Virus record (IMG/VR): IMGVR_UViG_3300043436_002073
Location: 1-25,912 of that record
DNA: 25,912 nt
Direction: 5' to 3' (one strand)
Source of the DNA: a virus
Below the pieces are notes generated by a model. The model saw nothing but the letters and a program-made list of their open reading frames with translations, did no database searches and was not told the origin of the DNA. The translations under genes were made by a program, and so were the position numbers. Numbering within the stretch: position 1 is the first letter of the stretch; each line of letters opens with the position of its first letter. Shown piece after piece: positions 6,084-23,918 of the stretch.

Positions 6084-6263
6084 ATGAAGGCCAATACCAT
6101 AACCCCAACGCTCAAGCTCCTCAGAATGGGCGTGAAATCAAAAACGCCCTCTTATGCTTTAAAGGGTAAACGGCTTTGGCTTTTCCGTTTATTTAAGTGG
6201 GGCTCGTTTTCCATTTGGTGGGGCTTTATTATTTACCTAATATTTAATTGGTGCAATGGCTGA
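6084..6263 (+). CDS. Small membrane-anchored ORF between tail tip and tape measure genes (59 aa)
   Basis: 59 codons, beginning ATG AAG GCC directly after the TAA of the tail protein and ending in a TGA that overlaps the tape measure start by 8 bases. The N-terminal half is basic (MKANTITPTLKLLRMGVKSK); the C-terminal part is hydrophobic and aromatic (SFSIWWGFIIYLIFNWC), a likely single membrane segment. This is the place where many siphoviruses carry tail assembly chaperones, but the protein does not look like one and no slippery site is evident. The perfect packing between neighbours supports a real gene. Function unknown. Confidence 0.55.
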   Translation: MKANTITPTLKLLRMGVKSKTPSYALKGKRLWLFRLFKWGSFSIWWGFIIYLIFNWCNG

Positions 6264-8505
6264 GGAAAATTTAAAAGCGCAAGTAATTTTAACGGTCGAT
6301 GACTCGGGCGCTACCAAAAGCATCGACAACCTCACGGGCGCCATTAACGAGGCGGGGGCCTCGGCTCAAGGTTGGGCCCAGCAAGTGGGGGACCTTAAAA
6401 AGCAATTGGCCTCAGTCGATCCAAGCTCGCGGGAATGGGCCGAGCTCGCATTACAGTATAAAGAACTCGGCGGCTCCTCGAAAGTTGTTAGCCAAAGCGT
6501 CGACGAATTAAAAGGGCGTTTAAATGATTTGGGCGCCAACGTACCGACGGAACCCGTTAAGAATTTCCGCCAGCAGATAAAGGACCTTACAAACGAGTTA
6601 CAAACTACCAACCTCCCGAAAACCTCCGCCGAATATCAGAATTTAAAAACGCGGCTCGAGCAATTAAAGGACGCTCAAAAGGATTTTAACGAGGAGATTG
6701 GCGCCAACGCGGGCCCAGCGTTCGAAAGCGCGGGGAATAATTTACGCAACCTCCAAAGCCGTCTCGGGTCGCTTGATTTCGGAGGCGCGGCGGATAGTCT
6801 TAACGGACTCGCCAAAAATGTAAAAGGGCTAAATTTCTCAGGCGCTACGGAAGGCTCGGGGGCTTTTACCAAATCGGTTTTAAACCTTGGTAAAGCGCTT
6901 TTAACTAACCCTATATTTTTAATAGGTTCGGTTATCGCCCTTATAATTACGAATTTCGATAAACTCGCCAATATTATTCCTGGCGTTGGAACTGCTTTCG
7001 AGGTGATTGGCTCGGTAATCAGTACCGTAAAGGATGCCATTACAGGATTTACGGACGCCATTGGTTTAACGGCGGTCGCGGCGGCGGATGCGGTGGACTC
7101 CGCTATCGCTAACCTCGAGGGGAATCAGAAAAAACTCGATAACGCTCGGAGGCTGGCGGTCGCTAACGCTCAAAAAACGGGCGGCGATGTCAAGGCGATT
7201 AACGACGAATATCGTAATAAGGAAATCGCCGAAAATCAAAATTTAATTGATGACGTAAACGAGCTCGAGAAAAAAGGAGTTCTTTTAACGAAAGAACAAC
7301 TCGACGCGCGATCCAAAGCAATCGCGGCCAATACCGAAATTAATATAAAATCGGTAGAAGATGAAGCCAACACGGCCGAAAAAATACGCAACGACGCGGC
7401 GGCCGAGGAGGAGAAACGAATCGAGCGCGCAAAGCAAGCCGCCCAGCAACGCGCCCAACAAATTAAGCAAAACGAGGCGGAGGTAACCCAAGCCATAACC
7501 GACGCCCGCGAGGCTCGTTTTCAGGCGGGTTTAAGTGATGAAGATAAAGAACTCCGCCAGCTCGATTTAAAATATGAAAAGTTAAAAACTCAGGCGGGCA
7601 ATAATCAGAATTTAATTAATCAAATCGCGGCCGAAAAGGAAGCGGAACGCCTTGGGGTACTTAAAAAATATTCGGACCTCGAACTCGCCCAGCAAGCCGA
7701 AAAGGATAAGGCCCTCGCCGACCAAGTCCGCCAAAATGCACTAAATGAGGCGGCGGAACTTGAGGCGCTTGAGGAGGCTAATTTTCAAGCGGGACTGAGC
7801 GCAAAGGATCGCGAATTACAGGCGCTGCGAGATTCCTATTTTGAACGCATAGAAATTTTAAAGGCGGCGGGATTGGATGCGTCCAACCTCGAAAACGAAT
7901 TATTAACCAAAGAGGGGGAAATCCGCCAAAGGTATCGCGATGAGGAAACCAAAAAACAGGAAGACGCCGCCAAAGCCGAGGCGGATAAGGCGAAACAATT
8001 AAGCGACGCCCGAATCCAAGCGGCGAGTAATACCGTTTCGACCTTACTCTCGTTAAACGAGGCCTTTGCGGGTAAAAGCCAGCAAAGCCAAAAGGCCGCT
8101 TTTCAGCGCCAAAAAGCCCTCCAAATCGCTCAGACGGGTATTGAGACGTATAAAGCCGCTCAAGGTGCTTACGCGTCCCAATTGATTCCTGGCGACCCTA
8201 CATCGGTACCCCGCGCATTTATCGCGGCGGCGGCGGCCGTTGCGGCGGGATTGGCCAACGTTGCAAAGATTAAGGCGACGACATTCAGCTCACCCGCTCC
8301 GAGTGGGGGAAATAATACGAGCGTCCCAAGCCTGAGCGCTCAAGGCGTGGCGGCCTCGGGTGGAACCGTGCCCGAGTTTAACCCGCTGGCGGCGTTTAAT
8401 ATTCAAAACCAACCCCAGCAAGCGCAACCCGCTTACGTTCTCGCTGGCGACGTTGCGAGTTCACTTGAGGCGCGGGCAAAAGTTCAAGACCTCGCGAGAC
8501 TATAA
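6256..8505 (+). CDS. Tape measure protein
   Basis: 749 residues, mostly helical. N-terminal coiled coil (residues 1-150, rich in Asp, Lys, Gln), a hydrophobic stretch at about 216-260 (LLTNPIFLIGSVIALI and the following GVGTAFEVIGSVI), then a very long Glu/Lys/Ala/Gln coiled coil (about 290-590) and an Ala/Gly/Pro-rich tail. This is the classic layout of siphovirus tape measure proteins, which set tail length and help pass DNA through the membrane. At the usual ~0.15 nm per residue, 749 residues would correspond to a tail of about 110 nm (rule of thumb). A segment near residues 419 and 507 is duplicated with an 88-residue period (ARFQAGLSDEDKEL and ANFQAGLSAKDREL). Start chosen at ATG 6256, overlapping the small ORF upstream. 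Confidence 0.85.
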   Translation: MAEENLKAQVILTVDDSGATKSIDNLTGAINEAGASAQGWAQQVGDLKKQLASVDPSSREWAELALQYKELGGSSKVVSQSVDELKGRLNDLGANVPTEPVKNFRQQIKDLTNELQTTNLPKTSAEYQNLKTRLEQLKDAQKDFNEEIGANAGPAFESAGNNLRNLQSRLGSLDFGGAADSLNGLAKNVKGLNFSGATEGSGAFTKSVLNLGKALLTNPIFLIGSVIALIITNFDKLANIIPGVGTAFEVIGSVISTVKDAITGFTDAIGLTAVAAADAVDSAIANLEGNQKKLDNARRLAVANAQKTGGDVKAINDEYRNKEIAENQNLIDDVNELEKKGVLLTKEQLDARSKAIAANTEINIKSVEDEANTAEKIRNDAAAEEEKRIERAKQAAQQRAQQIKQNEAEVTQAITDAREARFQAGLSDEDKELRQLDLKYEKLKTQAGNNQNLINQIAAEKEAERLGVLKKYSDLELAQQAEKDKALADQVRQNALNEAAELEALEEANFQAGLSAKDRELQALRDSYFERIEILKAAGLDASNLENELLTKEGEIRQRYRDEETKKQEDAAKAEADKAKQLSDARIQAASNTVSTLLSLNEAFAGKSQQSQKAAFQRQKALQIAQTGIETYKAAQGAYASQLIPGDPTSVPRAFIAAAAAVAAGLANVAKIKATTFSSPAPSGGNNTSVPSLSAQGVAASGGTVPEFNPLAAFNIQNQPQQAQPAYVLAGDVASSLEARAKVQDLARL

Positions 8506-8534
8506 AAAGAAAAGGCCCCCACGTTTGGAGGCCT
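8504..8534 (-). terminator. Intrinsic terminator facing leftward between tape measure and protease genes
   Basis: Read on the - strand: AGGCCTCC, loop AAACGT, GGGGGCCT, then TTTCTTTTT. The stem has 8 pairs including one G-U and is followed by a T-rich tract, which fits an intrinsic terminator. On the + strand the same G-U becomes a C-A mismatch and no T tract follows, so the signal points leftward, against the surrounding genes. See the linked promoter at 8574-8604. Confidence 0.45.
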
Positions 8535-8568
8535 CGATAAACTAAATATCAAATCTAATAATCAATAG
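8504..8568 (-). ncRNA. Candidate antisense small RNA (about 60 nt)
   Basis: A possible leftward transcript would begin near 8567-8569, a few bases after the TAAATTTG box, and end at the terminator whose T tract overlaps the tape measure stop. It contains no plausible ORF, so an RNA product is the simplest reading. It would be complementary to the leader between tape measure and protease genes. This is inference from sequence signals only. Confidence 0.25.
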
Positions 8569-8573
8569 AGCCG

Positions 8574-8604
8574 CAAATTTATATAAAAAAAAAATGGATT
8601 CAAA
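8574..8604 (-). promoter_or_regulatory. Candidate leftward Bacteroidota-type promoter (TTTG-N19-TAAATTTG)
   Basis: On the - strand TTTG (8604-8601) is followed after 19 bases by TAAATTTG (8581-8574), a full match to the Bacteroidota TTTG / TAnnTTTG consensus with a suitable spacing. The interval includes the A-rich leader and ATG of the + strand protease gene, whose poly-A stretch raises the chance of a fortuitous match. Confidence 0.3.
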
Positions 8605-9178
8605 AAAAATATTTAAGTGCGTAATTGGCCCCGAGGGGAGCCTAGGAGTCGAGGCGATTTCATTAGTTGAATTTCCCGCCATTGAGTCCAATTGGATCGC
8701 ATTAAAAAAGGAAGTGAAACTCGAGGCCCTCGATAATGAGCGGCGCATGTTATACGGCCCCGCGCTTATTCCTGATAAACCAATTTTGAGGATTGATAAG
8801 GAAACGGGCGAGGAGTATTATATCGTTTTCGATAAAGAAACGATTTATAACTGCGCTCATGCCTTTATGAAAAACGGGTTTCAAAATGCTCATACTTTTG
8901 AACATATGAAACCAATTGAGGGCGTCACCGTAGTAGAATCATGGTATAAGGAAGGCGACAACGACAAAAGCGCTTTTTTAGGTATGGACGTCCCCGTGGG
9001 AACCTGGGTTATCGGTTCCAAAGTAGATAACCCCGAAATATGGGCGAGCGTTAAGGAGGGAAAGGTTAAAGGGTTTTCGATTGAGGGTTACTTTGACCAC
9101 GTCGGTTTAACGATGGGGGCGGTAAGCCCCGAGGCGTTGGCCCTTCAGGAAATAGAAAAGTTATTTAATTCATTTTAA
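8594..9178 (+). CDS. Prohead protease, XkdF-like phage serine protease
   Basis: 194 residues. Matches the XkdF-type putative phage serine protease layout: ALIPDKPILRID near residue 57, AHTFEHMKPIEGVTVVESW (residues 99-117) with His100/His104, then PVGTWVIGSKVDNPEIW and VKGFSIEGYF (residues 158-167) with Ser162 as the likely nucleophile. These enzymes cleave scaffold and capsid proteins during head maturation. The gene is followed by a strong terminator and then scaffold and capsid genes, which fits. It lacks the longer C-terminal region carried by many XkdF proteins; a domain I associate with that region is here fused to the portal instead. Start ATG at 8594 follows an A-rich leader of ten As without a Shine-Dalgarno site. 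Confidence 0.8.
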   Translation: MDSKKIFKCVIGPEGSLGVEAISLVEFPAIESNWIALKKEVKLEALDNERRMLYGPALIPDKPILRIDKETGEEYYIVFDKETIYNCAHAFMKNGFQNAHTFEHMKPIEGVTVVESWYKEGDNDKSAFLGMDVPVGTWVIGSKVDNPEIWASVKEGKVKGFSIEGYFDHVGLTMGAVSPEALALQEIEKLFNSF

Positions 9179-9225: not shown

Positions 9226-9265
9226 GCTAAAAAGGGTTCCTAACGAGGAGCCCTTTTTTCGTTTA
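9226..9265 (+). terminator. Intrinsic terminator after the protease gene
   Basis: AAAAAGGGTTCC, loop TAACGA, GGAGCCCTTTTTT, with one G-T pair: a stem of about 12 pairs ending in six Ts. Flanking GCTAAA and TTTAGC extend the pairing. It separates the tail/protease block from scaffold and capsid, which implies a promoter in 9266-9327 or readthrough; I could not identify a convincing promoter there. The rest of the 149-base gap (9179-9327) shows nothing else. Confidence 0.8.
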
Positions 9266-10856: not shown

Positions 10857-10877
10857 GGGGGGTTTAAACGCCCCCCC
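10857..10877 (+). terminator. GC hairpin after the capsid gene
   Basis: Six Gs (10857-10862), loop around TTTAAACG, and seven Cs (10871-10877). No T tract follows, so it may protect the capsid mRNA 3' end or attenuate rather than fully terminate transcription. Confidence 0.45.
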
Positions 10878-15593: not shown

Positions 15594-15961
15594 CCGACTG
15601 CGATTACCGACTCCAAAGGGCTTACACGCTGGCGGCCCATGAATTTCGGGCGTTATACCCAAACGACCCCCAGCCCTTTTTAACATGTACGTTTCGGAGT
15701 AATGAGGAGCAAGCGGAACTCTACGCAAAGGGGCGAACGGTGGCGGGTAAAATCGTAACCAATATCAAAACGGGGGGAAAACACAACGTTAAACCCGCTC
15801 AGGCTTTCGATATTGCATTTAAAGACTCGGAAGGGGTACTCGATTGGTCCCCTGAGTTATTCGCCAAATTTGCGGCGATAATTAAAGCCAATTTTAACGG
15901 CCTTATAAAATGGGGGGGCGACTGGAAAAGGTTTCCCGACCGCCCCCATTTTGAAATTTAG
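15575..15961 (+). CDS. Endolysin, M15-family peptidase (L-Ala-D-Glu / D-Ala-D-Ala type)
   Basis: 128 residues, a minimal M15 metallopeptidase domain. Zinc and active-site residues: His70 and Asp79 in KHNVKPAQAFDIAF, and the C-terminal WGGDWKRFPDRPHFEI with Asp122 and His125. FRSNEEQAELYAKGRT earlier is the usual helix of this family. It cuts peptide bonds in peptidoglycan stems during lysis. There is no signal peptide, so it needs a holin, which is encoded upstream. The protein ends right at HFEI and its 3' end doubles as a hairpin terminator (15907-15952); the stop codon overlaps that of the opposite-strand gene. Confidence 0.85.
   Translation: MASRKLTDCDYRLQRAYTLAAHEFRALYPNDPQPFLTCTFRSNEEQAELYAKGRTVAGKIVTNIKTGGKHNVKPAQAFDIAFKDSEGVLDWSPELFAKFAAIIKANFNGLIKWGGDWKRFPDRPHFEI
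15907..15952. terminator. Bidirectional terminator hairpin inside the endolysin gene
   Basis: AAAATGGGGG (15907-15916) pairs with CCCCCATTTT (15943-15952), and an inner GGAAA-AGG-TTTCC stem sits at 15924-15936. The A run on one side and T run on the other make it usable from both directions, where the two operons meet. Confidence 0.65.
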
Positions 15962-23831: not shown

Positions 23832-23864
23832 CAAATATATTGTTGCTTTTTTGCTACATCCAAC
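23832..23864 (-). promoter_or_regulatory. Candidate Bacteroidota-type promoter for the 59-aa gene
   Basis: - strand: GTTG (23864-23861, one mismatch to TTTG), 21 bases, TATATTTG (23839-23832, full match to TAnnTTTG). Start would be near 23825, leaving an 18-base leader. Just upstream, TTAACAAAT is repeated twice (around 23868-23886), a possible operator. The rest of the 111-base gap to the terminase stop shows nothing else. Confidence 0.5.
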
Positions 23865-23918
23865 TATTTAACAAATTTTAACAAATCGGTTATTGAAAAT
23901 CAGCGTTTTAGCTATTTT

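Follow-up and report, generated by a model that had tools for sequence, protein, structure and literature searches.

The stretch of DNA analysed here (the window throughout) is the 25.9-kb record of an uncultured virus. Its terminase is 47% identical to the terminase of Flavobacterium phage 11b, and the window was therefore assigned to a Bacteroidota phage. Up to position 15,961 the genes are rightward and comprise tail genes, the tape measure gene, a protease gene, genes for a likely scaffold and a likely capsid protein (both named from gene order and size) and the portal gene. All genes beyond 15,961 are leftward, with the early operon running leftward from 25.8 kb. The gene for the tail length tape measure protein (positions 6256–8505, plus strand; PHROG tape measure, E = 1.6e-15) is separated by 88 bases from the head maturation protease gene (8594–9178, plus strand; PHROG head maturation protease, E = 6.8e-15), and both flanking genes are rightward. 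A sequence-only reading of the window had placed in this region a leftward promoter match and a leftward terminator that face each other against the direction of all surrounding genes, and the position and sequence of both elements were borne out.

Protease relatives from viral contigs and loci obtained by a DNA-pattern search were used for comparison. The gap hairpin was found in 23 loci (the window, L001–L016, L053, L108 and L189–L192), which contain 12 distinct stems. A search of named phages for DNA relatives of the window gave one short match, which was spurious. In bacterial genomes, a protease profile search gave no relatives, and a search for the pattern of the unit gave two isolated matches only, in non-Bacteroidota bins. 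No Rfam family reached gathering score in the window and ten related loci.

Several other hairpins were noticed. The last rightward gene, which is peptidase-like, ends in a long hairpin that forms on both strands (15909–15949), where the two operons converge. The hairpin GGGGGGTTTAAACGCCCCCC (10857–10876) stands directly behind the likely capsid gene; its shape is kept in all relatives examined, most of which have no plus-strand T tract at this place. In a more distant phage group, represented by L130 and L114, a perfectly two-way hairpin, CCCCCTAAACGTAGGGGG, flanked on each side by a T tract, lies behind the protease gene, between it and the scaffold gene.

Leftward terminator in the gap

The putative terminator (8504–8535, minus strand) consists of a stem at 8535–8512 with the loop AACG and a T tract at 8511–8504, and it overlaps the stop codon of the tape measure gene. 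It reads GAGGCCTCCA-AACG-TGGGGGCCTT with the tail TTCTTTTTAT and was detected by a terminator scan as a 10-pair minus-strand match. The scan of the whole window returned 38 terminator-like sites against 31.1 ± 6.4 expected, a total within chance; this site rises above chance when relatives are compared, and not on the strength of the window by itself.

The two strands of the hairpin are not equivalent. Folding of the same 48 bases gave −18.7 kcal/mol for the minus-strand RNA and −12.6 kcal/mol for the plus-strand RNA. As had been claimed from the window, a U.G pair of the minus-strand stem becomes a C.A mismatch on the plus strand, and a T tract follows the hairpin on the minus strand and not on the plus strand. 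Since the plus-strand stem is thus broken and lacks a U tract, late rightward transcription should pass the hairpin.

In all 23 loci the hairpin sits directly behind the tape measure stop codon, and in every version examined the minus-strand fold is more stable than the plus-strand one. The loop is AACG in nearly all distinct versions, and each of the 12 has six to eight T residues in the 12 bases after the stem. When pairs were counted with the loop as anchor, the 12 distinct stems contained, on the minus strand, 93 Watson-Crick pairs, 20 G-U pairs spread over six stem positions, no A-C pair and one other mismatch. A minus-strand A-C is a plus-strand G-U, so selection for a plus-strand stem would invert this count. 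The rightward terminator behind the protease gene (9229–9259, plus strand), which was folded and counted as a strand control, has 14 G-U and 0 A-C pairs on the plus strand, also in 12 distinct stems. Shared ancestry accounts for many of the 20 G-U pairs, most notably for the U.G at the fourth pair, so the number is one of sequences rather than of events. Relatives give strong support to the leftward terminator and to the G-U argument for the minus strand. Nor was the stem lost from close relatives, an outcome that was to speak against the unit; it is kept by all relatives in the protease clade of the window. We regard a leftward intrinsic terminator at 8535–8504 as close to certain, as far as sequence can settle the matter.

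The hairpin shares its core stem and loop with an intrinsic terminator core of Bacteroidota phages, CCTCCAAACGTGGGGGC followed by a T tract, which viral contigs carry in 63 distinct contexts, among them a rightward position behind the protease gene of relatives. The copy in the gap differs in pointing against its operon. With genome sequences as the only input, the G-U versus A-C contrast reveals the transcribed strand of a phage hairpin, so that such units can be searched for in uncultured viruses.

Putative promoter boxes and the predicted RNA

The minus strand at 8604–8574 reads TTTG-AATCCATTTTTTTTTTATA-TAAATTTG, with a 19-base spacer, and matches the Bacteroidota sigma-A promoter. By itself this match is weak, because the pattern TTTG-N17-21-TAnnTTTG occurs three times in the window, where 0.83 matches are expected, and three are also reached in 5 of 100 shuffles. 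The two boxes fared differently in relatives. The −7 box (8574–8581, minus strand) is intact in 16 of the 23 hairpin loci, as TATATTTG in 14 and as TAAATTTG in two, despite divergence among the loci of the stretch from the box to the hairpin. It is broken in the other seven (L013, L014 and L016; L189–L192), which form two lineages and carry TATATTAG, an alteration of a nearly invariant T. The −33 TTTG (8601–8604, minus strand; inside codons 3–4 of the protease gene) is found at a spacing of 17–23 in the window only and is absent at that distance from the relatives. Thus, of the promoter claimed earlier, the −7 box is supported by conservation and the −33 box is not. According to PMC7366714, no −33 motif was identifiable in F. 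johnsoniae, so its lack is compatible with a promoter.

The box of the window fits the refined −7 consensus TAHHTTTG (PMC6847099), and no other TAHHTTTG is present on the minus strand across the protease gene of the window. A second minus-strand −7-like match, TAGATTTG (8550–8557), was rejected, as it carries a G that this consensus excludes. TATATTTG is nearly unique within the loci of about 10 kb. The box lies in the A-rich start region of the protease gene, and shuffled versions of the gaps contained some TAnnTTTG in 4–20% of cases and TATATTTG in 0–4%; since the loci are related, these frequencies cannot be multiplied across them. The same TATATTTG box is part of the conserved early promoters of the family, TTnGGATGTAGCAAAAAAGCnAC-N2-TATATTTG. 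In the window the early leftward promoter (23832–23870, minus strand) has an operator-like inverted repeat, GTAGC-AAAAAA-GCTAC, between its −33 and −7 boxes, and in several relatives a further copy of the family early promoter stands about 2.1–2.6 kb away.

The −7 box lies 38 bases upstream of the terminator on the minus strand. By the position rule for this box (T at −12 to G at −5; PMC6847099, PMC9723704), transcription would start near 8569, and we consider this start probably real. An RNA of about 66 nt (8504–8569, minus strand) is predicted; its fold has a z-score of −3.9, owed mostly to the terminator stem. We favour, with somewhat better than even confidence, a promoter–terminator unit that produces this cis-antisense RNA.

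According to this model, the RNA polymerase of the host would initiate near 8569 and terminate near 8504, and the resulting leftward RNA would be fully complementary to untranslated late mRNA just ahead of the protease gene. The U.G pairs would make the terminator one-way, with a full stem and a U tract for leftward transcription and a C.A mismatch and no U tract for rightward transcription. Complementarity of the predicted RNA is confined to the untranslated gap and the tape measure stop codon. Its expected 5′ end (8569) falls about 25 bases short of the protease ATG (8594) and leaves the start site uncovered, so a simple block of ribosome binding as by sar is not expected. Duplex formation or polymerase collision may instead lower protease output or uncouple the protease from the tail genes, through cleavage of the duplex between the tail part and the head part of the message or through interference between opposing polymerases. 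The antisense RNA could possibly time head versus tail protein synthesis, as the sequence-only reading had suggested.

Gain and loss of the unit and alternative readings

The unit is not a fixed part of the operon. In L017, L187, L188, L193 and L194 only about ten bases separate the tape measure and protease genes, with neither hairpin nor box, and these five relatives fall inside the two carrying clades. The whole unit is absent from the distant relatives L019–L036, and loci that lack the hairpin also lack the −7 box before the protease ATG. On the protease tree, five changes are required to explain where the unit is present or absent, at least two of them imposed by well-supported branches. 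The unit thus appears to be optional and dispensable, and to have come or gone more than once. The gap body of the window differs from those of L001 and L002, whose flanking genes are 91–94% identical in DNA to those of the window, which indicates that the body is free to change or is exchanged. It is conceivable, if improbable, that a promoter-to-terminator cassette with a fast-changing body is repeatedly gained and lost at the tail/head boundary of Bacteroidota tailed phages, that the antisense RNA made from it fixes how much head protease is produced relative to tail proteins, and that the G-U pairs act as a one-way valve by which the same DNA stops antisense and not late transcription.

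Two further features were seen in the gaps of L013 and L189, members of the two lineages with a broken −7 box. Each has a tiny plus-strand open reading frame, MENFRR or MENFRG, just before the protease ATG, and the two gaps have in common an inverted repeat, CGAAAATGGAAAATTTTCG, on the plus strand.

The main rival to the antisense unit is a barrier without a promoter of its own or any regulatory RNA, in which the leftward terminator keeps stray antisense transcription, whether from spurious promoters or from early-operon read-through, out of the tail genes. The retention of the hairpin in the seven loci with TATATTAG agrees with such a barrier, as does the lack of conservation of the −33 box. 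Against it stand the −7 box, kept in 16 of 23 loci within an otherwise diverged gap, and the absence of the hairpin from some relatives. Moreover, incoming leftward transcription could already be stopped by the hairpins at 15909–15949 and 9229–9259, both of which fold on the minus strand and would screen the gap from read-in; past them the nearest plausible leftward source is the −7 box itself. Because other leftward sources would be screened and no other TAHHTTTG lies on that strand across the protease gene of the window, we prefer a local short RNA and hold the plain barrier to be a serious but rather unlikely reading, most plausible in the lineages with a broken box.

The conserved box could also be read from the other strand. 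Its plus-strand counterpart, CAAATATA, lies in an A-rich stretch 6–12 bases before the protease ATG and might be kept for translation start, leaving a leftward role to the hairpin alone, or none; this would fit the A-rich start contexts without Shine-Dalgarno sequences that Bacteroidota use (PMC6847099). Against it, the distance to the ATG varies among loci over this range, no other late gene in the window is preceded by CAAATATA, and it is missing from hairpin-less relatives that nevertheless keep the protease. Given the variable spacing and the absence before other genes, we judge this role quite unlikely.

It is very improbable that the gap holds by chance a trans-acting phage small RNA aimed at host or other phage messages, for, even though a comparable unit from −7 box to terminator, conserved in its 3′ half and set beside other genes, occurs in another Bacteroidota phage group, the RNA body is not conserved between lineages, its exact complementarity to other parts of the window extends over nine bases at most, and the 5′ word it has in common with L086 is frequent inside genes. 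This word, GCRGCTCTATT, had suggested a mobile RNA, a candidate rejected on the same count.

Comparison with known antisense systems

The preferred antisense unit resembles two kinds of known system. DonS RNAs of Bacteroides are cis-antisense RNAs of 78–128 nt that oppose susC homologues of polysaccharide loci, and the sigma-A −7 box consensus is present for about half of the B. thetaiotaomicron cis-antisense RNAs (PMC7366714). The predicted RNA would likewise be short and antisense, belongs to the same phylum, has the same −7 consensus and adjoins its would-be target gene. Unlike DonS, it would measure about 66 nt, is placed within the late operon of a phage and would pair in a gap without reaching the start codon; no susC homologue stands beside the unit, its neighbours being the tape measure and head protease genes. 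Like sar of P22 and OOP of lambda and P22, it would be a short phage antisense RNA with its own promoter and terminator against an oppositely directed operon (PMC13397905); the targets of sar and OOP are early or switch genes (ant, cII/C1), whereas the candidate lies between structural genes. Its expected pairing, unlike that of sar, stops before the start codon of the downstream gene. Since the defining features of DonS (a susC neighbour) and of sar/OOP (overlap with the target start) are lacking, we assign the predicted unit to the general kind only, cis-antisense RNA.

The switch regions of enterobacterial phages are a well-known site of antisense control. Within a literature coverage that was incomplete, we found no report of antisense control in a structural operon of a Bacteroidota phage, and nothing relevant on antisense RNA and tape measure genes.

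A further unit was noticed in a group of different Bacteroidota phages (L086, L090, L099, L100, L112, L132, L144, L146, L161 and L167). It is about 85 nt long, leads from a TAnnTTTGC box to a similar terminator and adjoins a gene ending in VSNYRIVNGKIR. Most of these loci have kept the 3′ half of the unit (GTTATTGATTgAACtAGCCC...), which makes it a candidate phage small RNA.
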